From a virus, in the IMG/VR virus record IMGVR_UViG_3300009151_000515, positions 1 through 20,317 of that record: a stretch of 20,317 bases of DNA; one strand, 5' to 3'. Shown here piece after piece: positions 1 to 20,224 of the stretch (position 1 is its first letter; every line of letters starts with the position of its first letter). Under the pieces are notes generated by a model, which was not told the DNA's origin, did not search any database, and saw nothing but the letters and a program-made list of their open reading frames with translations. The translations under genes were made by a program, and so were the position numbers.

Positions 1-814
1 AATTTTTCTGAACAATTCGATTTATTAGATGATTAATTTCGCTTGTGGAAACATTTTCCTCACTTATGGACAATGCACTTTTAATCCAACTAAAAAATAC
101 CTCACTATTACTAATAGTATCGTCCTTGTTGGTAACGAATTTATCCATTTTATTAAAGAATTCACTTAGGAAGTAGTTACAATCTCTTTTAGATTTAAAA
201 AAGTCTTCTATGTTAAATTTACTTTTATAATATTGTTTGAAGAAGATATAGACTTCTTCATCTTCTAAAGTTTCTTTTACTATATTTCTAATTTCCAGTT
301 TTGACATTTCAGGTGTAATTTGCTCTTTAAGTTCATAATAAATATCATTAAAATAAGCTTCAAATTCATCGGGATTGCAATAGTATAGTGTTTCGATTAA
401 AACCTCAGCATTTTCTTTTGTTGTGAAAAGATGTCGGTATTTATCGGCAACATATCTACCAATATGATTTATATAGAAATAGTTATCGGTTTTCATTTTC
501 CTACGAATATTTCTATCCATGTGCTTCAATTCGTGAATTAAGGTACTTTTTGATATTTCATCCATTTTTATTGAGAATTCAAAGTTATCAGGATCTTCAA
601 CTCTAAAACTTCCACTTAACTCACGTCCATTTTGCTCCTCCGGTTTTAATAGGTAGCAATCAATTTTTATTTGATTTCCTAAATATTCTGTTTCTAGTCG
701 GTAGTATTTTTTACCCGATAGTTCTTTCAATATTTTATCCGCTATATCTTCAAGTGAAGTTAGTATACCAAGTCTTTCCGTAATAAATGTATTAAAATCA
801 CTAATTCGTTTCAT
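1..814 (-). CDS. Zinc-metallopeptidase-like protein with HELKH motif (C-terminus outside window)
   Basis: I translated this by hand: an open frame starts at ATG 812-814 and runs off the left edge, giving 271 residues without a stop. The key motif is HELKH at residues 94-98, the HExxH signature of zincin metallopeptidases, in which the two His bind zinc and Glu is the catalytic base. A later NPDEFEAY stretch (residues 147-154) has acidic residues that could supply the third zinc ligand; that is inference. The N-terminus, MKRISDFNTFITERLG, resembles the T4 capsid-targeting peptide, including an I-x-E site of the kind cut by the T4 prohead protease. The start overlaps the end of the upstream gene by 14 bases, so it is the distal gene of the left operon. 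No signal peptide is seen. The substrate is unknown; it could be a virion-packaged protease or a protein that has only kept the fold. Confidence 0.75.
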   Translation of the reverse strand, partial: MKRISDFNTFITERLGILTSLEDIADKILKELSGKKYYRLETEYLGNQIKIDCYLLKPEEQNGRELSGSFRVEDPDNFEFSIKMDEISKSTLIHELKHMDRNIRRKMKTDNYFYINHIGRYVADKYRHLFTTKENAEVLIETLYYCNPDEFEAYFNDIYYELKEQITPEMSKLEIRNIVKETLEDEEVYIFFKQYYKSKFNIEDFFKSKRDCNYFLSEFFNKMDKFVTNKDDTISNSEVFFSWIKSALSISEENVSTSEINHLINRIVQKN

Positions 815-1346
815 TATCTATATCAAATGTTATTCTTAAATCACCACCTTCAAAACCGACCGAACAGGATTCGAAGTTTGAAAAGTGACTTAGTCTCGGT
901 ATTATTTTATCTTTTAGTATTTGAAAAACTAATTTAGCTTTTTTATTTCTTTCAATTATATCATCTAAATCATTTTTAACTTCCTCTAAATCTTCTCTAT
1001 TTCCATCAAGATATCCAAATATTTCTTCAAATTTTGCATCATCAATTGTCTCAGGCTCATCAATTGGTGATAATATCTGATTTGTATAATCTAAAAAGTC
1101 GAGATTCATATGAGGTATATCATCGTGTATTTCATATCCTTCTTTATATGTCATATAAATCCAAACATCATAGAATCCTTCATATCCATCCCAATTCTCA
1201 CCCTCCTCATCTTTTGAATAGTCATGAAAATCATATTCAAAATCAAACTGATCTACTATATCTTGCATAATGCTTTTAAAATCTTCAAAACTTAGTTCTG
1301 GGCCTTCTTTTGATTCATTAAATCTTTTAAGATATTTATATTTCAT
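801..1346 (-). CDS. Acidic protein of unknown function with phage N-terminal peptide
   Basis: A 181-residue protein that I do not recognise. It is strongly acidic, with many Asp/Glu and aromatic residues between residues 20 and 80, and has a charged helical stretch at about 105-150. It has no membrane segment and no obvious catalytic motif. The N-terminus MKYKYLKRFNESKEG belongs to the recurring basic/aromatic/x-Glu peptide found on most unknown proteins of this block, which suggests packaging in the head (inference). It overlaps the upstream cupin-like gene by 4 bases (ATGA) and the downstream metallopeptidase by 14, so translation is probably coupled. The reading frame is clearly favoured over the antisense frame at 1034-1270 by its position in the operon and its composition. 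Confidence 0.8.
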   Translation of the reverse strand: MKYKYLKRFNESKEGPELSFEDFKSIMQDIVDQFDFEYDFHDYSKDEEGENWDGYEGFYDVWIYMTYKEGYEIHDDIPHMNLDFLDYTNQILSPIDEPETIDDAKFEEIFGYLDGNREDLEEVKNDLDDIIERNKKAKLVFQILKDKIIPRLSHFSNFESCSVGFEGGDLRITFDIDNETN

Positions 1347-1606
1347 AACTTTTGTAGTTTTATTTTAAGATCTCCATCACCTTTAATTAGTCTGTGATAA
1401 ACTCCTTTAGGTATATATATTTTACCAGAAATAAGAATAGGTAATTCATTATCTATTTGAATTAACCAATCTGTATCACCAATAGATTCAACAATACGAT
1501 TTTCATGATCTCTATGCCACATAAATTCACCAGAATCAGTATCTTGTTTGAACTCTCTGATAAAAGTATTATCACTTAATTTAGTTTCTTGAAATGGAAG
1601 TGTCAT
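1343..1606 (-). CDS. Small cupin-like protein
   Basis: An 87-residue protein with the layout of a one-domain cupin. Residues 30-37 (WHRDHENR) match the first metal-binding strand pattern, a central strand carries DWLIQIDNELP, and IPKGVYHRL at 65-73 matches the second cupin motif with its conserved His. His31, His34 and His71 are candidate metal ligands. Similar small cupin proteins are known from marine T4-like phages; their role is unclear. Unlike its neighbours it lacks the N-terminal phage peptide, so it may stay in the infected cell. It starts 6 bases after the stop of the upstream gene and overlaps the next gene by 4 bases. The family call is good; I cannot give an enzymatic function. 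Confidence 0.7.
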   Translation of the reverse strand: MTLPFQETKLSDNTFIREFKQDTDSGEFMWHRDHENRIVESIGDTDWLIQIDNELPILISGKIYIPKGVYHRLIKGDGDLKIKLQKL

Positions 1607-1612
1607 ACATTT

Positions 1613-2167
1613 TTATTTTTTTATAAAATAATCTAATTCTTTTTTATCAATATTATCAATTGGTGTTATTTTACTAACTGGACTACCTAAATGATAGTTT
1701 TTAAGAGAGAATTTATTATCTCCTAAGTTATATTCTACTATATTGTATCCAATTTTTGGTTTATCTATACAATCAAAAACCAATGGTGAATCTTTTCCAA
1801 ATTTTGGATAAGCATCTAACATATTACCGATTATCCATTTACCATCTTTTATTATGTATATTTTAACCTTATTATTCTCAACATGGATTCCTATATTTGA
1901 TATTCTCATGCCTTTGTTTGTTAGATGTAAAACAGAATTGGCTTCGTTTTCAAATTTAGGGTCTATGAAGAAAGAGTTTTGATGCCACTCTTTTAAACCT
2001 TTATCTTCACCACCTGTATTAGTATGATCCGACTTCCACCTTTTTGTTTCCCCCTTATCAGTCATTAGATATTTAGAACCTTGTCCCGTTTCTAAATATA
2101 TGACAACTTTATTACCAGTAGTTGATGTAATAGACTCAAATATCCTATATGTTTTTAAGTGTTTCAT
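1613..2167 (-). CDS. Conserved-looking phage protein of unknown function
   Basis: A 184-residue protein. The N-terminus MKHLKTYRIFESITS is one of the clearest examples of the block's recurring peptide; I-F-E would be a prohead-protease-type site. The middle contains KSDHTNTGGEDKGLKEW (about residues 45-61) followed by FFIDPKFENEA, a pattern that reads like a structured domain shared among T4-like phage proteins, but I cannot name a family with certainty. The C-terminal half is rich in short beta-strand-like segments. It has no membrane segment and no catalytic motif. It lies 2 bases downstream of the 361-residue gene and 6 bases upstream of the cupin gene, inside one operon. Confidence 0.75.
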   Translation of the reverse strand: MKHLKTYRIFESITSTTGNKVVIYLETGQGSKYLMTDKGETKRWKSDHTNTGGEDKGLKEWHQNSFFIDPKFENEANSVLHLTNKGMRISNIGIHVENNKVKIYIIKDGKWIIGNMLDAYPKFGKDSPLVFDCIDKPKIGYNIVEYNLGDNKFSLKNYHLGSPVSKITPIDNIDKKELDYFIKK

Positions 2168-2169
2168 AA

Positions 2170-3258
2170 TTAACCGGTTATTTTTTTTATTGCGGGTTCA
2201 ATTGCTAAATAAGTTCCAATTGCAATTACTAACGAATCAAGAATGGATAAAATGTCACCTACATAAGGTATTTTCTTTATTGCGTTTTTAACATTTGAGA
2301 CAATTTCTTCACCGTTGATTCCCATAGTGTCCCAAACTTGATCCAATGTTTTATCTTGAATTTGATTAGCCAATTCTTCGAATCCACTCGCTTTATTTAA
2401 AAATTCTTTGAACTTTTCAATTTTACCTACCACTTTATAATAAACATAGATTTCTAAAATCTGAAAGAGGAAAAGAAATCCTTTTTGAAATTTACTCCCA
2501 CCACCTTCTTTTCCGGTTGTTAACCAAACAAAAAACTTGTCAATTATATTAGATAAAGAAGAAATTCCTTTCTTCATCATTTCTTCTATTTTAGGAATCC
2601 ACGAAAACGGTGGAAATGTCATAATCTTCTCACCCAATCTTTGTAGGAATGATTTTTTCTCTTCTTGTTCTTCGGCCTCGAATAGAAAGTGATTATCAAT
2701 GATGTATAGTCCCTCATTTGTTCCTAAGTTTAAAACTTTAGAAAAACATTCGGATAATCTTGTAACTAAGTCAGTTATAATTTGACCAGAAACAATATAC
2801 TTTAACAAATCTGAAATAATTTTTACATATATTTTTAATTTTACTTGTTTCTTTTTATTGACAAAATCTAATAAAATTGTTGAGAACTCTCCGTCTTTCA
2901 TAGCATAGTTTTTTACTTTATCTGATAGATTAGTGAATTGTTCTTTAACATATTCACCGATTTTACTGGCTAATTGTTTTGCAAAATCTAAAACATCTTT
3001 TGCTTTTTTAACTAAATCGACCAGTAATTCACCAGCTTTACTTTTGACTGCCAATACACCTCTTTTACCTTTATCAACAAAATCAGAAAACCAAGACTCG
3101 GTTATTAGACCAAAATCAGATTCAATTACAATTTTTTCATTAATTGATAAATGATGATTATATAAAGAAGTAAAGATTAAATTAAAATTTTCTCTGTCTT
3201 TAGATTCAACGATTGAAAAATCAAAGTGAAATTGGTTGTATGTTTTTATTCTGTTCAT
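2170..3258 (-). CDS. Helical, partly hydrophobic protein of unknown function
   Basis: I place the start at ATG 3256-3258 (361 residues). This puts MNRIKTYNQF, the block's recurring N-terminal peptide, at the very start. An in-frame ATG at 3277-3279 would add only MKNKKKY, encoded by an A-rich leader. The protein is mostly Lys-rich amphipathic helix. Hydrophobic stretches occur near 260-285 (FLFLFQILEIYVYYKVV) and at the C-terminus (about 330-355), where IPYVGDILSILDSL and the following residues could form a membrane-inserting hairpin. This makeup might suit a membrane-active virion or internal protein, but that is speculation. I do not recognise a family. It is followed after 2 bases by the next gene. 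Confidence 0.75.
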   Translation of the reverse strand: MNRIKTYNQFHFDFSIVESKDRENFNLIFTSLYNHHLSINEKIVIESDFGLITESWFSDFVDKGKRGVLAVKSKAGELLVDLVKKAKDVLDFAKQLASKIGEYVKEQFTNLSDKVKNYAMKDGEFSTILLDFVNKKKQVKLKIYVKIISDLLKYIVSGQIITDLVTRLSECFSKVLNLGTNEGLYIIDNHFLFEAEEQEEKKSFLQRLGEKIMTFPPFSWIPKIEEMMKKGISSLSNIIDKFFVWLTTGKEGGGSKFQKGFLFLFQILEIYVYYKVVGKIEKFKEFLNKASGFEELANQIQDKTLDQVWDTMGINGEEIVSNVKNAIKKIPYVGDILSILDSLVIAIGTYLAIEPAIKKITG

Positions 3259-3268
3259 ATATTTTTTT

Positions 3269-3358
3269 TTATTTTTCATTTCTTATTCCCACATAGTTAT
3301 AATTTCCTTTTCTAACTTCTTCAGCTTCTTTTTCTTTAGCTAAAATATAATCTTTAAT
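3269..3358 (-). pseudogene. Possible remnant of a small gene (29-codon open frame without start)
   Basis: The 117-base gap between two operon genes holds a minus-strand open frame of 29 codons with protein-like composition (it begins IKDYILAKEKEAEEV and ends YNYVGIRNEK) but no start codon; a TGA lies directly before it. In another frame just upstream, the codons FNIKKLN run into TAA, so a single frameshift would join them. A purine-rich stretch, AGGGAGGAG, lies at about 3380-3393. This looks like a decayed small gene, but the stretch is too short to be sure. Confidence 0.25.
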
Positions 3359-3396
3359 TCAACTTCTTTATATTAAATGTCTTCTCCTCCCTTAGA

Positions 3397-4092
3397 TTAC
3401 CAAAATCCCGGATAGGATTTATTGTTCCACAAGTGACCGTATCGATTTATGCGACATGACCAGTACCCCGCGGTGGTCTTATCTTTCTTTAAATGGCACT
3501 GGTGGCGAGCAGCAAATGACTTTCTTGCCTTAGGATTACTAACTTTAGCTGTTAATCCACCATGAACATCACCAAATGCAATCTTTTTAACCCTACCAGT
3601 TTTTGGATTCTTTACATAAACTTGGTATTTTTTAGTTCCACCACGCATTGGATAATTTAACTTAACCTCTTTACCTTTATATTCAGCCTCATTTAGTTCT
3701 TCAATGTTTTCCATTGGTAAATCAAGTGGAACCATTTCACCTTCAAACATTACAAACTTACCAATGTCTGTTGTTTCGAATAGTTCTCTATCATTCTCTT
3801 TTAATAGCTCTATAAATTTTCTGGACTCACTCAAAAGTTCATAAAAAGATTCTGATCCTGGTCTAAAAACATTATCTAAAACAGACATTTTATTTTCCAA
3901 ATGGAATTTAAGATTTTCAGATGGGTTAAACCCGAAATCTGAGAATTTCTTAACTGATTTCAAATCGACATCTTTTTCTTCTAAATCAACAATAGGTAAA
4001 TAACCTTTTTCTGGAATGAAATCTTTGATTTCGGTTCCTCCGGTATTTTGTGATTTTTCTTCTTTGTTTTCAAATAATCTAATCTTTTTCAT
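3397..4092 (-). CDS. Phage protein with conserved ARHxC/YWSC C-terminal domain
   Basis: A 231-residue protein in two parts. The N-terminal part begins MKKIRLFENKEE, the recurring packaged-protein-like peptide with an L-F-E site, followed by about 120 acidic residues. The C-terminal domain, from EYKGKEVKLNYPMRGG (137-152), continues with a beta-rich YQVYVKNPKTGRVKK stretch, then SFAARHQC (192-199) and YWSC (210-213). Cys199, Cys213 and His197 could bind a metal. This small domain recurs in T4-like marine phage proteins of unknown function, as I recall it. The sequence L-N-E/A at 133-136, just before the domain, fits the (L/I)xE prohead-protease rule of T4, so the domain might be released during head maturation (inference). 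It lies 3 bases downstream of the ATPase gene. Confidence 0.75.
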   Translation of the reverse strand: MKKIRLFENKEEKSQNTGGTEIKDFIPEKGYLPIVDLEEKDVDLKSVKKFSDFGFNPSENLKFHLENKMSVLDNVFRPGSESFYELLSESRKFIELLKENDRELFETTDIGKFVMFEGEMVPLDLPMENIEELNEAEYKGKEVKLNYPMRGGTKKYQVYVKNPKTGRVKKIAFGDVHGGLTAKVSNPKARKSFAARHQCHLKKDKTTAGYWSCRINRYGHLWNNKSYPGFW

Positions 4093-4095
4093 ATT

Positions 4096-6471
4096 TTATA
4101 TTTTTCTTTTTGCTTTAACCAAATACTTCTTTATGAGTAGTTTCCAAACTTTCTCACTTCTTTCGCCAATTGTTATATCTTCATCATTTCCAGCTCTCAA
4201 ATTAATTGAGTGTATTAGTGTTCTGATATTTAAATCAAATTTAACTGGGTAAGTTTCGGTTACATAGATTAGATAGTCTAAAGCTTCTTGTTTAAGTTCA
4301 TCATCTAATTCAGGACTTATTTTGTGCATAAGAGTTTTCATCCTTTCAATTAGTTCGGATTTGTTAAGATGAACATCTACATGAAGGGATCTTGAAAGAA
4401 GTGCGTCATCAAATTTATCTTCTGGTAAATTAGAGATAAAAATAACTTGACCATTGAATCCAAATTTATTGGGAAGTTTACTTGGATCTTCTTGATATGT
4501 TGCTTCAATTTCTTCATCTGACATTCCCATAGAGTCAAAAGTATTTCCTTTTGTCATTTTAGAAATTTCTCTTACTTCATAAGTATCTAAAGCTCCTTTT
4601 AGGAGATTTATTGAATCCGATTCTTTAAAAACTGCATCGCAGTCATCAAAAACAATTAGTTTATGTCTGTTTTTAAAAAGGACCTCATATAATCCTGCAG
4701 TTGTTATAGTTCCTGTTGTTGTAAAATAATCAACATCGGTTACCATTCCTAATGATTTAAGAGTATCTTTTACCGTTTGAGTATTGTGCGTGACAGTAAA
4801 GTCTTGTAATAGGTATAAGTTGTTGGAATCTATTGTAAATCCATAATAGTCGCCTTGTCCTATGGATTCTATTTTGATTCCAGATACTAATGGATCTTTT
4901 ATCTGTTTTCTTTGAGATATTTTTTTTCTATTTAGTAGAACTGGAACTTCTGATAAGTTTCCGCTTATATTTATATTAAAATAAGTGCCAACCTTCTTAT
5001 TTTTCCCAATATTTTTTACTATTTTTTTAGATATATGTGCATGAAACCCTAAGCTTCTGCACAGGAATTTAATCTGGTCAGCAAGTTGAGGAAATTTTGT
5101 TGTTACTGAATATGTTTTATTAAATTGATATCCATCTGTGTCTATAATTCCAGCAAGTAGGCTTAGCCTTTTATATCTTGAGTTGAATAAAAATTCATTT
5201 GGTATAAATTTTAATCCGTTTAATAGTCCATATTTTCTAAATTTGTTTATTAGTGGATTTTTATTTACTCCTTTTCCTGAAATATTTCCAACTGTTAATC
5301 GATATCCATCGCTATTAGATTTTTTATTTTCGTGTTTTTTTAGTTGGGTATTTTCGATTATTGATATTTTTTGTAAATATTCAACAATTTCTTTATCCTC
5401 TGTCTCTATTTCTAACACTTTACAACTTCCGTCTCCTATCCAAATACCTAGAAGGTATGGGTCAAACTCAACTTCTTGGTCTTTAAACTCAACTCCCCTT
5501 TTGTATAGCTTTAAAAGCCTTTTTTGATAATTCGATAAATTTAGATATGACCTAACTGAGATATTTTCTATCTCTTTACTAATAGTATGTTTAAGTGATA
5601 ATATATGATCCGAATTACATGTAAATTCCTCAAATCCAGCTCTCCCTCCTATTCTATACATTTCATCAACTCCTCTACCAAGAGACTGGACTATCCTTGG
5701 TGATGAATCATCTCCCATTAAGATATCTCCAATTTCAATATCTTCGACACTTTTAATAGTGCCATTAAACATTATTATTTTTGTTCCTTTTCCATGGCAC
5801 TTACCAACTCCTGCCTGACCACTAATTATAAGTGAATTACTTTTCTTTTTAGCAACTTGTATTGTATATAATTCGATTGATTTGAACACATCTAAGTTTA
5901 AATCATCTGATGTTACATTATCACTCTCAAGTTTAGCTTTCTCATCTTGAGCAACGGCAGCTTTTAATCTTTCAATTTGTCCTTTAATTTGTTCTTTCTT
6001 TTCAGCTGATCGAGCTCTTTTATATTTACCTTCTAAATCACTTAGTCTTGATGCGTTTTCATCATTTTCTTGTAATTGTAAGTTTTTAACACCTGATTTT
6101 ACAAACGATTGTGGGTTATTAAGAAATTTTACAATTTCAGGAAGAACTTTAACAATTGATATCCCTTCTAATGTGAGTGTAAATTGTGGATTAGTGTCGA
6201 ATTCAAAATCGACCCATAAATCGATAGAGTGTATTTCACTTCTCAGGTCACCATCTATCCAATTTATTCTAATTGCCTTTGAGGTTTTCAAGGAAAGAAA
6301 CAATTGTCCAGTTAAGAATAAATTTTCCTTTTGTATGTAGAATAATTCGTTATATGGATAAAGATCTACATTACTATTTCTTGTAATATAGGATATTATT
6401 TGTTCTACGGCGTTTTCTTTGTCTTTTGATAAGAATGCTTCTAGGAATAATTGATATTTTTTAATGATCAT
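4096..6471 (-). CDS. AAA+ ATPase precursor interrupted by an intein
   Basis: A 791-residue precursor. The host protein is residues 1-224 plus 564-791 (452 residues after splicing). Its N-terminus, MIIKKYQLFLEAFLSK, matches the block's capsid-targeting-like peptide. Residues 135-175 are a charged coiled-coil-like linker. The ATPase core has Walker A GQAGVGK|T (split by the intein after Lys224), Walker B KLIVFDDCD (604-612), sensor-1-like IFISN (677-681) and an arginine-finger-like LLSRS (691-695). Related AAA+ proteins with an FDDCD Walker B occur in large phages and plasmids; the substrate is unknown. It is the promoter-proximal gene of the left operon, with a TAATATATA motif 19-27 bases upstream. 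ATP hydrolysis should require splicing, because Walker A is incomplete in the precursor. Confidence 0.85.
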   Translation of the reverse strand: MIIKKYQLFLEAFLSKDKENAVEQIISYITRNSNVDLYPYNELFYIQKENLFLTGQLFLSLKTSKAIRINWIDGDLRSEIHSIDLWVDFEFDTNPQFTLTLEGISIVKVLPEIVKFLNNPQSFVKSGVKNLQLQENDENASRLSDLEGKYKRARSAEKKEQIKGQIERLKAAVAQDEKAKLESDNVTSDDLNLDVFKSIELYTIQVAKKKSNSLIISGQAGVGKCHGKGTKIIMFNGTIKSVEDIEIGDILMGDDSSPRIVQSLGRGVDEMYRIGGRAGFEEFTCNSDHILSLKHTISKEIENISVRSYLNLSNYQKRLLKLYKRGVEFKDQEVEFDPYLLGIWIGDGSCKVLEIETEDKEIVEYLQKISIIENTQLKKHENKKSNSDGYRLTVGNISGKGVNKNPLINKFRKYGLLNGLKFIPNEFLFNSRYKRLSLLAGIIDTDGYQFNKTYSVTTKFPQLADQIKFLCRSLGFHAHISKKIVKNIGKNKKVGTYFNINISGNLSEVPVLLNRKKISQRKQIKDPLVSGIKIESIGQGDYYGFTIDSNNLYLLQDFTVTHNTQTVKDTLKSLGMVTDVDYFTTTGTITTAGLYEVLFKNRHKLIVFDDCDAVFKESDSINLLKGALDTYEVREISKMTKGNTFDSMGMSDEEIEATYQEDPSKLPNKFGFNGQVIFISNLPEDKFDDALLSRSLHVDVHLNKSELIERMKTLMHKISPELDDELKQEALDYLIYVTETYPVKFDLNIRTLIHSINLRAGNDEDITIGERSEKVWKLLIKKYLVKAKRKI
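4783..5799 (-). mobile_element. Intein with LAGLIDADG homing endonuclease, inserted in Walker A
   Basis: Residues 225-563 of the precursor form a 339-residue intein. It begins with Cys225 in block A (CHGKGTKIIMFNGTIKSVED, then IGDILMG) and ends with the canonical His-Asn (VTHN at 560-563), followed by Thr564 as the +1 nucleophile. Block B is seen as CNSDHILSL at about 285-293. Two LAGLIDADG-type motifs are present: YLLGIWIGDG (339-348) and LLAGIIDTDG (438-447), both with the Asp needed for cleavage. All splicing and endonuclease residues I can check are intact, so it is probably active for both. The site, between Lys and Thr of the P-loop, is a well-known insertion point for inteins in P-loop ATPases. 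Confidence 0.93.
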
Positions 6472-6489: not shown

Positions 6490-6498
6490 TATATATTA
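6490..6498 (-). promoter_or_regulatory. Candidate late promoter of the left operon (TAATATATA)
   Basis: On the minus strand the sequence reads TAATATATA, ending 18 bases before the ATPase start codon. The same nonamer recurs before other transcription units here and resembles the T4 late promoter TATAAATA. All minus-strand genes down to position 1 are nearly contiguous and could be read from it. Confidence 0.45.
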
Positions 6499-11382: not shown

Positions 11383-13206
11383 ATGTTATTAACCGAATCA
11401 ATAGATATTAAAATAGATAAGAAAAACTTAATGTTTTATAGAAGATTTTCAAAATCTATTAATATAGGTGATATATTTACAATTGGTATTAATAGTTTAT
11501 CTAAAAAATCACACGCATTAGTTTCCGTTTCTTGTGATTATTGTGGTTTTATTTTTAATAAGCAATATTATAAATATGTTAAACAACTAGAAATACAAAA
11601 TATGTGCTGTTGTAATAATAGTATTTGTAAAAATAGAAAAAAGAGGGAAAATAATATTATTAAATATGGGGTAGAATATACCTTACAATTGAAAGAAGTT
11701 AGAAGTAGTATTATTGAGACAAATTTAGAAAAGTATGGCGTTGATAATTATACCAAAACAGATGTTTGTAAGGAAAAAACAAAAAAGACTAATTTAGAAA
11801 AGTATGGAGTAACATCCTATACTAAAACTGGTGAATATAAAGAGAAGTCCAAACAAACAAATTTAGAAAAATATGGTGTTGAGTTTGTTTTGCAAAACAA
11901 ACAAATAAAAGAAAAAGTAAAGAGAACCACTACAGAAAGATATGGGGTTGATAACTATACTAAAACTGGTGAATATAAAGAGAAGTCCAAACAAACAAAT
12001 TTAGAAAAATATGGTGTTGAGTTTCCATCACAATCAGAAGAAGTTAAAGGTAAGACTAAACAGACAAATTTAGAAAAATATGGTGTTGAGTATGTCCTGC
12101 AATCAAATCTTATTAGACAGAAAATTAAAAAAACAAATTTAGAAAAATATGGCGTTGATAATTATTCATCAAGTGATCATTTTTTCAAAACAACAATAAT
12201 TGGTAATCATCCAAATTATATTAAATATTTAGAAAATGGTATTTCTTTATTTAGGTGTGATTGTGGAAAAGATCACAACTTTGAAACAAATTCAGATGCT
12301 TTCTTTTGGAGAAAGAAATCAGACTTGCCTCTATGTACTATATGTTACGAAATAGGTAATCATCGTTCAATTAAAGAGCAGTTGTTATTTGAGTTCATTT
12401 TCAGTATTTATGGTGGTAAAATAATACAATCATATACAGATAGTAGGCAAGAAATTGACATTTATTTGCCAGATTTAAATCTGGGGTTTGAATTTAACGG
12501 ACTTTATTGGCATTCAAGTCAATATAAGGATAAAGATTATCATGTTAATAAAACCGAACATTTTAGAGAGAGGGGTATAAGGATTATACATATTTGGGAA
12601 GATGATTGGGAATTTAAGCAAGATATAGTTAAATCTATGATATCTAATATAATAGGGAATACAAAAATAAAGATATATGCCAGAAAGTGTGAAGTTAGGG
12701 TTATTAGCGATTCTAAGATATCTAATAAATTTCTGAATGAGAATCACATTCAATCAAAGATCAATAGCGTTTTAAAACTCGGATTGTACTATAAAGGTGA
12801 GTTAGTATCATTGATGACATTCGACCACTTTGAGGGTCGTAAATCAATGCCGAATATGGAATGGAATCTTTCTAGATTTTGTAATATTTTGAATACTTCT
12901 GTCATTGGTGCTGCTTCTAAACTTTTAAACTATTTCATATCACATTATAATCCTTTAAGAATTATTTCATATGCTGATAGAGACTGGTCTATTGGGGGAT
13001 TATATGAAACCTTAAATTTTATAAAGATATCAGAAGGAAATCCAGACTATAAATATATAATAAATAAAAAGAGAATACATAAGTCAAGATTTAGAAAGTC
13101 TAAAACAAGTGTATCAGAATCTAATTTGAATTTATTAAAAATATATGATTGTGGTAAAATAAAGTTTGAATTAGAAGTTGCTAGTACTGACTCGGTGTCG
13201 GAATAG
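11383..13206 (+). CDS. Free-standing homing-type endonuclease with KYGV repeats and Vsr-like nuclease core
   Basis: A 607-residue protein. Residues 51-82 hold a Cys cluster (C51, C54, C75-77, C82). Eight units of 23 residues start with YGV at 95, 118, 141, 164, 187, 210, 233 and 256, each ending in a TNLEK-like stretch; such basic helical repeats are probably DNA-reading. A second Cys pair set (C292, C294, C318, C321) looks like a zinc ribbon. The nuclease core follows: EIDIYLPD (Asp359), FEFNGLYWH (Glu370, His377) and IHIWEDDW (402-409), the pattern of Vsr-like PD-(D/E)xK homing enzymes. A conserved C-terminal domain (430-600) follows. It sits between the tail gene and the convergent gp25-like gene, and its final Glu codon and stop lie inside a copy of the tail gene's end. 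All key residues look intact. Confidence 0.8.
   Translation: MLLTESIDIKIDKKNLMFYRRFSKSINIGDIFTIGINSLSKKSHALVSVSCDYCGFIFNKQYYKYVKQLEIQNMCCCNNSICKNRKKRENNIIKYGVEYTLQLKEVRSSIIETNLEKYGVDNYTKTDVCKEKTKKTNLEKYGVTSYTKTGEYKEKSKQTNLEKYGVEFVLQNKQIKEKVKRTTTERYGVDNYTKTGEYKEKSKQTNLEKYGVEFPSQSEEVKGKTKQTNLEKYGVEYVLQSNLIRQKIKKTNLEKYGVDNYSSSDHFFKTTIIGNHPNYIKYLENGISLFRCDCGKDHNFETNSDAFFWRKKSDLPLCTICYEIGNHRSIKEQLLFEFIFSIYGGKIIQSYTDSRQEIDIYLPDLNLGFEFNGLYWHSSQYKDKDYHVNKTEHFRERGIRIIHIWEDDWEFKQDIVKSMISNIIGNTKIKIYARKCEVRVISDSKISNKFLNENHIQSKINSVLKLGLYYKGELVSLMTFDHFEGRKSMPNMEWNLSRFCNILNTSVIGAASKLLNYFISHYNPLRIISYADRDWSIGGLYETLNFIKISEGNPDYKYIINKKRIHKSRFRKSKTSVSESNLNLLKIYDCGKIKFELEVASTDSVSE
11817..11886 (+). repeat. 70-bp perfect direct repeat, copy 1
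   Basis: Identical at every base to 11955-12024. The two copies are 138 bases (46 codons, two 23-residue units) apart inside the KYGV repeat region of the endonuclease. Identity at silent sites indicates a recent duplication or gene conversion of a two-unit block. Confidence 0.95.
11955..12024 (+). repeat. 70-bp perfect direct repeat, copy 2
   Basis: Second copy of the repeat at 11817-11886. Flanking units encode related amino acids but differ in nucleotide sequence, so only this part of the array is recent. Confidence 0.95.
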
Positions 13207-13591: not shown

Positions 13592-13620
13592 GAATTATAT
13601 ATTTAAATTGAATGTGCCTT

Positions 13621-14637: not shown

Positions 14638-14646
14638 TAATATATA
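14638..14646 (+). promoter_or_regulatory. Candidate late promoter (TAATATATA) in divergent region
   Basis: TAATATATA ends 22 bases before ATG 14669. On the opposite strand the same bases read TATATATTA, 4-12 bases before the clamp-loader start, so the element may only serve the plus strand. Confidence 0.4.
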
Positions 14647-14668: not shown

Positions 14669-15238
14669 ATGAAATATTTGAAAATGTTTGAAAATTTTGA
14701 TCAGGACTTATCAGGTCAAATTGATGATTTGATTTCAAAGTTACCAAGTGGTGTAAAATTGCAATCCAATAGTAAGAAAAGTTTAACATTGTTAATTAAT
14801 AGTGTTTTGTATCATTTGGCAGCAGTTGATGGTGATTTTGTTATAATTCGTGAGTATGATGATACAAATATGGGTCAATATACACCAGAACAAACGATTG
14901 AAATATTACAATGGTATTTGGATAACCCTGATTATGATTCTGATACATCTTCAAAATATTCTAATAGTAGGGTTTCAAATAATATTATAAATGATGTTGT
15001 TAATTTTATACGTCCATCAGATCCTATGATGTCGGATGAATATGGATATTATGTATGGGGTGATGATGAGGCATATTATGATGATAAATTGACAGATGAT
15101 GATTATATAAATTGTATTGAGACTACTGTTTTTAAAGAGGATTCAAATACTGCTAAGAAATTTGGATGGGATTTTATACAGAAAAATAAAGAAGAGATTT
15201 TAAGTTTGTGTCGTAAGGAACTTGAAGGCTTAAAATAG
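14669..15238 (+). CDS. Acidic protein of unknown function with phage N-terminal peptide
   Basis: A 189-residue protein that I do not recognise. It starts MKYLKMFENFDQDLSG, the recurring peptide seen on the left-block proteins, with hydrophobic-F-E. The rest is very acidic, with a run of Asp/Tyr at about 120-145 (DEYGYYVWGDDEAYYDD), and a helical C-terminus. It has no membrane segment and no catalytic motif. It is followed after 7 bases by the gp15-like gene, so both are probably read from the TAATATATA box at 14638. The shared N-terminus suggests packaging into the head (inference). Confidence 0.75.
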   Translation: MKYLKMFENFDQDLSGQIDDLISKLPSGVKLQSNSKKSLTLLINSVLYHLAAVDGDFVIIREYDDTNMGQYTPEQTIEILQWYLDNPDYDSDTSSKYSNSRVSNNIINDVVNFIRPSDPMMSDEYGYYVWGDDEAYYDDKLTDDDYINCIETTVFKEDSNTAKKFGWDFIQKNKEEILSLCRKELEGLK

Positions 15239-16063: not shown

Positions 16064-17344
16064 ATGAAGAATCTAAAACTTGAGCTTTTCAACTTTAAAA
16101 AGTCCTTGACTTTTGATGCGTCAGACGTGGCTTATATTATTGAAGGTCATCTAAATGGATATACAGAGTTTGCTGAAAAGCAAATGATCCATTCTTTGAA
16201 TGAAAGATTAAAACCATACACTTATGATAAGCAAGTTAAGTCTTTCTTGGAGAGTCTTAATGATGATATGGCTCAATATGAGTTATTATATGAATTGAAA
16301 AGTTTGTATAATGTATTGAATTCAAAAAATCAAGGTGAACTTTATAGACAACCTATTAATGTTCTTTTACAAACTATTAATTTAGAAACAGATCAAGATA
16401 GATTGTCTAAAATTCTTAATGAGTTAGCAATTTATGACTGGGTTCCAGAAATTAAATTATTTGTTCACAACTTAACAAAATCTCCAGAAAAGAGAAATAA
16501 TCTTTTAAGTGGTGGTAAGGCTGAATCAGTTTATACTATTGTTGAGCAAGTTGAATCTGGACACTTATCTTTCATTAAAGATTCTTGGTTTATTTTAACT
16601 GAGAATGTAATTGAAAAGACTCTACTTGAGACTCATGTTAAAGATGAGGCAAGATTGAGAACTTTAAGAACTTTACAAACTGCTTTACAGTTTGCTAATA
16701 TTTCAGAATCAAGAATTGATTTCAGAATTTCTGAATATTTAACTCTTGGTTTAGGTGTTTCTAAAAAGGGTATTTTCATCAATGATGATGAATTAAATGA
16801 AGAATCAACTCTTGAGAGTATTTTCTCATCTCCGGTTATTCCTATTATAAATAAGAATTTCTATCCATTGATTCAAGAAGTTTCTAAGAACATGGATTCT
16901 TTTGTTGAATTAGATGTTGTTAAGAGAGTTTCTAACTTAATTAATCCTACTTTAGAAGTATTTGCTTTCAATTATAAAAATAATCTTTTTGTTTACAGAT
17001 GTGATGAAAGATATGGTTATTCGTTCTTTAAATATGAAAGCGCAATCGAATTAGTTAATGAAGTAAGAAATGAATTGAATTTTGATTTAACTTATTTCTT
17101 TGAAGCTAAATTGAGCAAAGAGGTTGTTAGTAAGAAAAAACTTGAAGATAAAGAAAGACAAATCACTCTTAAACTTGAAGATGTTGAGTTCAATATTTCT
17201 AAGGTAAAAGCATCTCTTCAAATGTTAGGTGAAACTAAAGTATTGAAAGAAGCTCTTAAAAACTTACAGAAGAGGGAAAGTAGCATTAGTGAAGAACTTC
17301 AAGCTATTAAAGAACTTCAATACAAAGAAAGAACTAGACTTTAA
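16064..17344 (+). CDS. Unknown protein, probably abundant; C-terminal coiled coil
   Basis: A 426-residue protein that I do not recognise. It begins MKNLKLELFNFKKSL, a looser form of the recurring N-terminal peptide. Residues 1-130 are helical, the middle is mixed (a SGGKAESVYTIVE segment near 145-157), and the last 70 residues (about 355-426) form a charged coiled coil. It has its own promoter-like box and is closed by two intrinsic terminators, so it is transcribed alone. Its codons include more C-ending forms (TTC, AAC, CTT) than the neighbouring genes, which suggests high expression. This fits an abundant virion or scaffold protein (inference). It has no enzyme motif and no membrane segment. 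Confidence 0.75.
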   Translation: MKNLKLELFNFKKSLTFDASDVAYIIEGHLNGYTEFAEKQMIHSLNERLKPYTYDKQVKSFLESLNDDMAQYELLYELKSLYNVLNSKNQGELYRQPINVLLQTINLETDQDRLSKILNELAIYDWVPEIKLFVHNLTKSPEKRNNLLSGGKAESVYTIVEQVESGHLSFIKDSWFILTENVIEKTLLETHVKDEARLRTLRTLQTALQFANISESRIDFRISEYLTLGLGVSKKGIFINDDELNEESTLESIFSSPVIPIINKNFYPLIQEVSKNMDSFVELDVVKRVSNLINPTLEVFAFNYKNNLFVYRCDERYGYSFFKYESAIELVNEVRNELNFDLTYFFEAKLSKEVVSKKKLEDKERQITLKLEDVEFNISKVKASLQMLGETKVLKEALKNLQKRESSISEELQAIKELQYKERTRL

Positions 17345-17534: not shown

Positions 17535-17900
17535 ATGTACTTAAATAATCGTGAATTATATGTTGAGATTCTTGTATCAAAGGCTCAAGGAAAATTGACC
17601 AGAAAAGCTGAAAAAATGCTAGAACTTCTTGGTAAAGAAACAATCAAAAAAATGAGATATTGGAGTAACGATGATAAAATGGATTGTTTCCAGTCCGGCT
17701 TACTTGATATGTATCAAAATTGGTTTAACTTTAATGAAGAAAAATCCGTCAATGCCTTTGCGTACTTTACCGAGGTTTTTAAAAGGGGGATAGCCAAAGG
17801 TTTCAACGAAATCTACAAGAAGAAAGGGGATTCTGAAAATTCGATAAGATTAATTTCACTTGAAGGATCAAATGATGGTCAAGGTCTTCATTCACTTTAA
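17535..17900 (+). CDS. 55: Late-transcription sigma factor, T4 gp55-like (short)
   Basis: A 121-residue protein. The opening YLNNRELYVEIL parallels the YVNNKELLQAI start of T4 gp55, and residues 43-97 (from WSNDDKMDCFQSGLLDMYQNWFN through EEKSVNAFAYFTEVFKRGIAKGFNEIYKKK) follow the gp55 sigma-2-like region, including the N-x-AYxT/F-T motif. In T4, gp55 directs host RNA polymerase to late promoters with the octamer TATAAATA. T4 gp55 has 185 residues; this one lacks most of the C-terminal part, where T4 gp55 carries its clamp-binding epitope. It ends SLEGSNDGQGLHSL, with no obvious epitope. It is preceded by a promoter-like box and hairpins and followed by the tRNA-like gene. Confidence 0.8.
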   Translation: MYLNNRELYVEILVSKAQGKLTRKAEKMLELLGKETIKKMRYWSNDDKMDCFQSGLLDMYQNWFNFNEEKSVNAFAYFTEVFKRGIAKGFNEIYKKKGDSENSIRLISLEGSNDGQGLHSL

Positions 17901-18688: not shown

Positions 18689-19202
18689 GATGATCTTCGG
18701 TGATAATAATAAAGTCCCATCCTTTTAAATCACAATATTTTATCATTGTTTTCCATTTCTCGGAGTTCTTTTGTGCCATTTTGAATTTAAACTCGACACT
18801 TTTTAGTTTTTTCAAATTTGCATCTTTTGGTATTTTAAATAGTTTTTTTTCAAATAATACAACGTCATTATATTCTTCTTTTGGTTTAACCTCAGCGACT
18901 ACTTTTTGCAAAGACCCATCATCTCTAATAACTTCATAATAGAAATCTGGGTAGTAGCAGTGTGATTTTAAATTTATATCCCCATTTTTTTCATAGTGTG
19001 TTAATTGGTAGGGTATTTGTATATTTTCTGATGACCACATAACAACCTTTTTATTTTTATCAAAAAATTGCATAAGCTTTAGCTCCCAGGAACTACGATA
19101 ATATATTCCGCCTTGGGCATTTAATTTTAGTACTTTGTCTTTATTTATTGGTATATAATTTCCTTGGTGATAGTTACTATTGTTTGGTTTGGAGTTTAAC
19201 AT
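18666..19202 (-). CDS. 4: Head completion nuclease, T4 gp4-like
   Basis: A 178-residue protein (T4 gp4 has about 150). The family signature is clear: YIPINKDK near the N-terminus, YYRSSWELKLMQF (34-46), VMWSSENIQIPYQ (54-66), CYYPDFYYEV (82-91), VVAEVKPKEE (101-110) and a C-terminal WKTMIKYCDLKGWDFIIITEDHL. Glu40, Asp86, Glu104 and Lys106 form the TnsA/PD-(D/E)xK-type active site. In T4, gp4 (with gp50/gp65 functions) finishes DNA-filled heads before tail joining. It overlaps the stop of the upstream endonuclease by 7 bases, so it depends on transcription through that gene. Extra residues at 67-80 (LTHYEKNGDINLKS) and 108-125 explain the extra length. Confidence 0.88.
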   Translation of the reverse strand: MLNSKPNNSNYHQGNYIPINKDKVLKLNAQGGIYYRSSWELKLMQFFDKNKKVVMWSSENIQIPYQLTHYEKNGDINLKSHCYYPDFYYEVIRDDGSLQKVVAEVKPKEEYNDVVLFEKKLFKIPKDANLKKLKSVEFKFKMAQKNSEKWKTMIKYCDLKGWDFIIITEDHLKKMGLL

Positions 19203-20224
19203 ATTTCGTTTATTTTTTTTAATATAGAATCTTTGTAGGATATTACGATCAATTTTATTGAGTTATCCTCACAAAACTTACTCTTTATTTCATCATTTTT
19301 TATTTGATATAAATATTTATTTTTACCTCCCCAATGTTCGACGGGTTTGTAGTGTTGAATTCCGTTAAATTCTATACATATATTTTTTGATGGTATAAAA
19401 AAGTCAAATCTTAGACTTTTGATATTTTTACAATTTTTAAATGTTTTTTGCTTGATAAACAATATATTATTTCTTGATAATATAGATTCAATTATTGTTT
19501 CACCTGTTGATATTTTTGGTAAAAATCCATTTAGATGATTATATGGTAGTTGTTTAATCCATCCAGTTTCTTTTGAGTATATCTTCATTTTGTGTGAGGA
19601 ACCTTTATATTCTAAAGTTGAATAATCAAACTCTATAATTCCTTTCCATTCTTTTTTTGACTTTTCAATGAATTTTAGTTTTTCAAGATTTGAATTTTTT
19701 TCTCTAGAACAAGTTGGACACCCATATCCGATTGTGTTATCTATAAATCCTTTAAAATTACCATGAATATTGCAGACGAATTCTGATTTTTTATCATATC
19801 CATTATATGATAAAATTTTTAATTTTTTGCCATTTATTTTATTTATTATGCCTTGTGATAATTTTCTTTTATCATCATAAATACATTTTGGGCAAGATTG
19901 GTTTAGATAGAAGTGATTATGTATTTTTTGAGTGAATTCACCATGTTGATTGCAGATTATTTTTATATAATCTCTTGATTTGTATATTTTATCCTCTATA
20001 ATATATTTGTAGTTTGGTTTCGCTTTTTCCAAAATTTTTTCTTTTGTATATGCTCCTTCTTTTTCCTTTGAGCATTTGCTACAATTCAAGTTTTTAATAT
20101 GCACATCATATCTTTGTGAAATTTGACCATGTTTTTCACAAATATAATTTATGTATTTTCTACCATTTATATATTTTTCTCCTAAATATTTTAGATTCTT
20201 ATTAAGATTTGTTATGTTTTTCAT
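19196..20224 (-). CDS. Zinc-finger homing-type endonuclease with PD-(D/E)xK core
   Basis: A 342-residue protein. It has three finger-like modules of the form CxxHG ... CxxC: C29/H32 with C48/C51, C91/H94 with C111/C114, and C151/H154 with C169/C172. These are common in phage nucleases and probably bind DNA. The nuclease core follows: GETIIESIL (241-249), LRFDFFIPS (Asp274), ICIEFNGIQH (Glu285, His291), a Lys at 314 and IKLIVISY (323-330). This arrangement fits Vsr-like or related PD-(D/E)xK homing enzymes. It lies between a TAATATATATTA box and the gp4-like gene, whose start codon it overlaps; its own stop TAA is formed from the gp4 start region. Residues look intact. The target could be the gp4 region of related phages. 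Confidence 0.78.
   Translation of the reverse strand: MKNITNLNKNLKYLGEKYINGRKYINYICEKHGQISQRYDVHIKNLNCSKCSKEKEGAYTKEKILEKAKPNYKYIIEDKIYKSRDYIKIICNQHGEFTQKIHNHFYLNQSCPKCIYDDKRKLSQGIINKINGKKLKILSYNGYDKKSEFVCNIHGNFKGFIDNTIGYGCPTCSREKNSNLEKLKFIEKSKKEWKGIIEFDYSTLEYKGSSHKMKIYSKETGWIKQLPYNHLNGFLPKISTGETIIESILSRNNILFIKQKTFKNCKNIKSLRFDFFIPSKNICIEFNGIQHYKPVEHWGGKNKYLYQIKNDEIKSKFCEDNSIKLIVISYKDSILKKINEIC

Follow-up and report, generated by a model that had tools for sequence, protein, structure and literature searches.

A peptide shared by the N-termini of otherwise unrelated proteins in a 20,317-bp fragment of viral DNA (IMG/VR record IMGVR_UViG_3300009151_000515, hereafter the window) is, with a probability of about 0.8, a capsid-targeting sequence (CTS) of the phage T4 type, expanded from ~4 carriers in T4 to ~150–190 in phages with genomes of 640 kb. 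Such a tag would load its carriers into the prohead, where it would be cut at a phi-x-Glu site. The sequence itself shows that the tag exists and how many genes carry it, that it agrees with the T4 targeting residues, and that a scaffold has tag-like repeats and phi-x-Glu sites in common with it; it also shows a class of promoter-like element.

The window is part of the genome of a relative of the huge phages LR745206 (634,780 bp; W01) and LR756502 (642,428 bp; W02), whose clamp loaders are ~60% identical to its own. The counterparts in LR756504 (636 kb; W03) and LR756501 (735 kb, of which 400 kb constitute W06) are ~34% identical. W01, W02, W03, Sphingomonas PAU and Tenacibaculum PTm1 were compared as whole genomes and W06 in part, with the relatives' genes called by a simple dicodon caller. 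An alternative genetic code was considered and rejected, since code 11 fits.

Scale of the tag

The seven minus-strand genes of the left block of the window (2–6471) are real open reading frames, six of which begin with the peptide described in the first-pass annotation. We modelled the tag as a ten-column motif with a free anchor, fitted by expectation-maximisation to the N-termini of W02 starting from seven window tags; no window gene was among the training genes, and a score of 5 was taken as the threshold. Scanned over whole genomes, this profile finds 155 of 924 genes in W01, 184 of 951 in W02 and 65 of 898 in W03, against 3.3, 2.6 and 3.4 matches after shuffling of residues 2–22 and a rate of 0.1–0.2% at internal Met residues. 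The N-terminal tag is real and far larger in scale than first noted. It is also present in 39 of 523 W06 genes and in 183 of the 1466 distinct genes at 126 IMG/VR loci of the clade (5.2 when shuffled). Starting instead from two artificial seeds, we trained a second model on W01; it behaves alike and yields 172 tagged genes in W02. Retraining per genome in PAU, PTm1 and immuto overfits, with as many as half of the genes then called tagged, and was discarded.

The tag has the shape M-K-[YH]-[LI]-K-x-[FYW]-x-x-[FY]-, followed by phi-x-Glu and often by Ser, Ala, Asn or Glu. Columns 0 (Y/F/W) and +3 (F) of the model rank among the strongest.

Lys-rich N-termini are common in phages and some tagged genes have paralogs, as would be expected if the tag were a by-product of gene duplication, of N-terminal composition bias or of a nucleotide-level translation-start signal. 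Shuffles that keep the composition give ~3 matches, however, vs 155–184. After removal of the first 22 residues, the 164 tagged proteins of W01 fall into 153 clusters, in keeping with the earlier claim that the proteins behind the tag are unrelated, and codon use inside the tags is close to that of the genome, with synonymous sites free. The protein encoded at 1613–2167 of the window has three relatives that are 86–89% identical overall; six of the first twelve residues have changed (3–6 and 8–9), while the anchor residues M1, K2, Y7, F10, E11 and S12 are retained in all three. Among 411 reciprocal-best pairs of W01 and W02, both members are tagged in 50, one in 19 and neither in 342 (p 1e-44). 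The tag is a protein-level signal and not a matter of paralogy, and we find its origin as a by-product hardly credible.

Match to the T4 capsid-targeting sequence

The CTS of the T4 internal proteins was reportedly described by Mullaney and Black in 1996. It has been defined for IPI, IPII and IPIII (PMC9026906, PMC3012670), and mutagenesis attributes targeting to residues 4 and 7 and processing to residues 8 and 10 (PMC9026906). The T4 targeting positions (Y4, F7) and processing positions correspond to the conserved aromatics and the phi-x-Glu of the tag. When the model trained only on W02 is applied to 261 T4 genes, IPI (8.3), gp61.1 (7.7), and IPII and IPIII (both 7.5) come out on top, with the next gene at 3.2 (p 1.4e-6); the W01-trained model repeats these top four. 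The phi-x-Glu site is found in 92%, 87% and 74% of the tags of W01, W02 and W03, vs 60–63% with residues 8–25 shuffled and 37–41% in untagged proteins. The blind transfer and the enrichment of phi-x-Glu after the motif bear out the likeness to T4 that had been claimed from the window.

The two systems have in common an N-terminal peptide of ~10 residues on unrelated bodies, aromatics at both targeting positions, a phi-x-Glu processing site and a gp21-type protease. They differ in the number of carriers (~4 vs ~150–190) and in the longer Lys/Leu lead of the huge-phage tag (M-K-[YH]-[LI]-K-x). In the huge phages, moreover, the core is repeated in tandem in a scaffold that is fused to the protease. 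IPI–III have small basic bodies; those of the tagged proteins are acidic on average and differ widely in fold.

T4 gp61.1 (L135:18966-19130, minus strand) begins with MKTFKEFIKED and scores like the T4 internal proteins. Since it stands among the top four with IPI–III, we predict that it is an unrecognised internal head protein of T4.

The scaffold-protease and the capsid

The first-pass annotation had advised a check for a gp21-like protease gene, and one is encoded by all complete relatives, though not within the 20-kb window. A single long protein in W01, W02, W03 and W06 comprises the protease domain, 10–14 tandem repeats of 14 residues (of the type NLDKNIAYSEYIAE) and an acidic tail. The fused protein occurs in >170 viral contigs; among 80 that were read, 76 have 11–14 repeats and four lack a readable frame. 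In its core, YSEYIAE, the repeat matches the targeting core of T4, YQEFIAE. Internal copies of the pattern [FYW]xx[FYW][ILVM]xE occur at 62–63 places per proteome in W01, W02 and W03; the protease-scaffold has 11 of them and any other protein at most two. This aromatic-phi-Glu pattern singled out the scaffold, whereas a scan of the proteomes with a Glu-aligned core matrix did not, because the basic lead residues dominated that matrix.

Ranked by excess of phi-x-E[SAGN], the protease-scaffold comes first in the three huge phages and in PTm1; in T4, gp22 comes first, with gp21, gp68, gp67 and gp23 close behind. The segment EYAEFHSINE/N of the major capsid precursor aligns with GSFLTE/A of T4 gp23 (the slash marks the cut), suggesting that the huge-phage precursor is cut there. 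The tag itself is best explained as a copy of the repeat unit of the phage's own protease-fused scaffold.

With its strongest links running to the scaffold and the protease, the tag might admit its carriers to the prohead core solely for assembly, as fillers or decoys of the scaffold, most of them not being injected or remaining idle in the next cell. Many tagged proteins are short acidic orphans, which would suit this role. However, enzyme domains are kept across genomes (RNA ligase, 2H phosphoesterase, AAA+), which points to a cellular job, and T4 injects both Alt and its internal proteins (PMC9026906). We consider a function confined to assembly quite unlikely.

A promoter-like element shared with virion genes

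Across the three complete huge-phage genomes, AATATATA in TTAATATATA context precedes 208 of 425 tagged genes and 18 of 30 virion (late) genes at a distance of up to 70 nt, vs 4 of 49 early replication/nucleotide genes and 230 of 2147 other untagged genes. The tagged genes share this class of promoter-like element with virion genes and not with replication genes. No enrichment is seen for the canonical late promoter of T4, TATAAATA, and the TTAATATATA element is presumably read by the gp55-like factor encoded in the window.

The element is situated 11–17 nt upstream of the start codon in 140 of the 425 tagged genes and in none of the 49 replication genes. At such a short distance from the ATG, the resulting transcripts would be almost leaderless.

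Virion evidence from other phages

The virion proteome of cyanophage S-CREM2, a T4-like phage, has been published from mass spectrometry (PMC10665884), and four of its proteins have a strict T4 N-terminus: a SAM hydrolase (MKDFDSFLEE), a kinase (MKRFDAFLTE), a cytidylyltransferase (MKNFSSFLTE) and gp136 (MQTFSMFFSE). With the kinase start as annotated, the strict pattern is found in 4 of 28 non-structural virion proteins vs 1 of 154 undetected ones (p 0.002). Without the kinase, which counts only once its annotated start is adopted, the figures are 3 of 28 vs 1 of 154 (p 0.012). S-CREM2 has such N-termini in common with the huge phages, in its case on enzymes found in virions, and differs in having a handful of carriers. 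The passages of the article that were consulted draw no link from these N-termini to a targeting sequence. Virion mass spectrometry of the Rak2-like phage CBB was set aside as a test because CBB has almost none of these tags.

Other phages offer partial parallels. SPN3US and phiKZ, likewise giant phages, pack many ejection proteins cut by the prohead protease, but their propeptides, mostly >100 residues long, do not share a short peptide, and a counterpart of gp22 is not confirmed in them (PMC5694885). In phage P1, the N-terminal 30 residues of DarB suffice to carry a foreign protein into the head (PMC9024508); DarB is, in contrast, a single large cargo. In the open-licence literature we found the T4 sequence, the long propeptides of phiKZ-like phages and the DarB signal, but neither a short tag common to a sixth of a genome's proteins nor a scaffold built from tag repeats.

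The cargo and its possible delivery

Most tagged proteins of W01 have no domain match. The matches include a tRNA nucleotidyltransferase/poly(A) polymerase head, T4 RNA ligase 1, a nucleotide cyclase, NUDIX, DHH, Toprim and two peptidoglycan hydrolases. Only three of 92 core T4 homologs in W01–W03 are tagged, namely the RNA ligase in two genomes and lysozyme in one. NrdC.10 and RNA ligase lack the tag in T4, whereas their homologs in the huge phages carry it; cargo could therefore be gained by the grafting of a few codons.

W01_0606 (L037:8257-9573:-) is a tagged fusion of a DEDDh exonuclease with a 2H phosphoesterase related to the anti-CBASS protein Acb1, and is possibly an injected anti-CBASS enzyme. 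The Acb1-like protein of W02 likewise has the tag (6.8), and one in W03 carries MNFYSNFDDFLLE, the Acb1 assignment being near the Pfam cut-off.

Enzymes such as the tRNA nucleotidyltransferase, RNA ligase, NUDIX and nucleases would be sensible in the cytoplasm too, and the tag might send its carriers elsewhere in the infected cell, to a replication compartment, a membrane or a phage-made structure, with the T4 likeness being convergent. Under that explanation one would not expect the transfer to T4, the tandem copies in the scaffold-protease, the phi-x-Glu sites or the promoter class of virion genes, and replication proteins are untagged. A destination outside the head is, in our judgement, unlikely.

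Several observations weigh against a CTS. Between 8 and 26% of the tags lack a clear phi-x-E, and P3 is often Phe or Tyr instead of the Leu or Ile of T4 (strict Leu/Ile in 53–63%). The net charge per residue of tagged proteins is −0.056 (vs −0.016), acidic and unlike that of the basic T4 internal proteins. Almost no such tags occur in Sphingomonas PAU, PTm1, CBB and immuto, although each encodes a gp21 protease. Head packaging would be odd for the endolysin-family matches, and ~150 different cargo proteins exceed any known case. The S-CREM2 test is small, and its virion data come from a cyanophage and not from the huge-phage clade; gene calls and starts in the relatives are home-made.

Since the tag combines the T4 head-loading signal with a likeness to the scaffold repeat, well over 100 different proteins are probably injected with the DNA. 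The set of virion-injected proteins proposed by the first-pass annotation finds support in the T4 transfer, the gp21 protease, the phi-x-Glu sites, the lack of the tag on recognised assembly and replication proteins, the promoter class and the S-CREM2 N-termini; from these we infer packaging, cutting and injection. We favour, with some reserve, a general protein-delivery system in some of the largest known phages, in which a peptide mimicking the scaffold would load 100–200 late proteins, among them enzymes of tRNA repair and of anti-signalling, as an injected arsenal that takes up roughly a sixth of the genome. Tagged cargo would be synthesised late from TTAATATATA promoters, and the amphipathic segment of the tag (K-x-[LI]-K-x-aromatic-x-x-aromatic) would join the scaffold core during prohead assembly. 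At phi-x-Glu sites common to all three, the protease would then cut the scaffold repeats, the major capsid protein and the tags, and so release the cargo within the head. On entering the next host with the DNA, the cargo could repair RNA, blunt defence signalling and take over the cell; tRNA repair and the destruction of second messengers would be useful right after entry, which fits injection. By rough arithmetic, one copy of each tagged W01 protein amounts to 34,608 residues or ~3.8 MDa, so ten copies of each would approach the mass of ejection protein in SPN3US, for which >40 MDa is reported (PMC7411985).

The tag would provide a sequence rule by which proteins probably packed in the virions of uncultured huge phages can be named. 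For >150 genes in each genome, most of them without an assigned function, it would predict a location, inside the head, and a time of action, the first moments of infection, and the tagged set is a ready list in which to search for anti-defence and takeover proteins. The results also suggest that a targeting peptide can work by copying a scaffold repeat, and they provide a candidate protease-fused scaffold for phages >600 kb. The pair of repeat and tag is a possible tool for loading proteins into heads.

Tagged and neighbouring genes of the window

Among the eight tags first listed (Table 1), the six in the left block and that of 14669 stand. Five of the six pass the threshold, as does 14669; the tag of 2–814 scores weakly and fits the strict T4 pattern aromatic-x2-aromatic-phi-x-Glu (FNTFITE). 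The eighth, 16064–17344 (MKNLKLELFNF), was rejected as a false positive because its orthologs W01_0285 and W02_0329 (73–74% identical) lack the motif, scoring −3.9. As first noted, the recognised assembly and replication proteins gp25, gp44, gp15-like and gp4 are untagged; gp55 stays just below the threshold in the window, and its orthologs score −0.5. Iterated searches did not recover T4 gp15 and gp55; PHROG confirmed gp55 and did not confirm the gp15 name.

Table 1. Features of the window. Scores are from the W02-trained model; a slash marks the predicted cut.
Feature	Position (strand)	Tag codons	N-terminus	Score	Remarks
Tagged protein 1	2..814 (-)	776-814	MKRISDFNTFITE/R	3.2	Cut by window edge; HELKH metallopeptidase-like motif
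Tagged protein 2	801..1346 (-)	1311-1346	MKYKYLKRFNE/S	10.3	Orphan
Untagged block member	1343..1606 (-)			-5.7	Resembles Flavobacterium phage immuto gp098
Tagged protein 3	1613..2167 (-)	2132-2167	MKHLKTYRIFE/S	15.2	Orphan
Tagged protein 4	2170..3258 (-)	3229-3258	MNRIKTYNQFHFDFSIVE/S	10.4	Inner ATG start at 3258
Tagged protein 5	3397..4092 (-)	4066-4092	MKKIRLFE/N	6.2	C-terminal Cys/His domain of phrog_7595
Tagged protein 6	4096..6471 (-)	6436-6471	MIIKKYQLFLE/A	8.9	AAA+ ATPase of T4 NrdC.10 family, with intein
Intein	4783..5799 (-)				LAGLIDADG/Hint (PF05203/PF05204); residues 225-563 (~339 residues), in Walker A GVGK^T of tagged protein 6
AATATATA element	6490..6497 (-)				26 nt upstream of first gene of tagged block
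AATATATA element	13596..13603 (-)				12 nt upstream of gp25 baseplate gene; same class as at tagged genes
AATATATA element	14639..14646 (+)				30 nt upstream of tagged gene 14669
Tagged protein 7	14669..15238 (+)	14669-14698	MKYLKMFE/N	6.0	Orphan
Conserved untagged gene	16064..17344 (+)			-4.0	Beside gp15-like gene
gp55-like late sigma factor	17535..17900 (+)			4.8	phrog_234, E 1e-6

The relatives of several window genes are tagged as well: W01_0259, ortholog of 801–1346 (37% identity; score 13.1), W01_0532, relative of 2170–3258 (6.8), and W02_0610, relative of 14669–15238 (15.6). The ortholog of 4096–6471 in LR756502, W02_0295, is tagged (8.9) and lacks the intein, while T4 NrdC.10 itself is untagged (−3.3). 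Neither 2–814 nor 4096–6471 has relatives among the viral contigs searched; the 2–814 protein has no passing match in Pfam or PHROG, and its AlphaFold model reaches a pLDDT of only 41. Homologs of 3397–4092 are found in Flavobacterium, Pelagibacter, Methylophilales and Roseobacter phages.

In Flavobacterium phage immuto (L189), homologs of 3397–4092 (C-terminal domain) and 1343–1606 adjoin each other, and genes in their vicinity have an N-terminus of another kind in common, MKKSELVKLIKEEL / MKKSQLRQIIKEAL, which may be a different tag. The genes beside a relative of 1613 at L337:2409-4987 begin with METRLKSFTQFIGES, MSVLKFNQYLILEQ and MILTFNQYCILESK, which are tag-like and score low with the huge-phage model. 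Two homing-endonuclease-like genes of the window, 11383–13206 and 19196–20224, flank the segment from gp25 to gp4, and the first contains tandem TNLEKYGV repeats.

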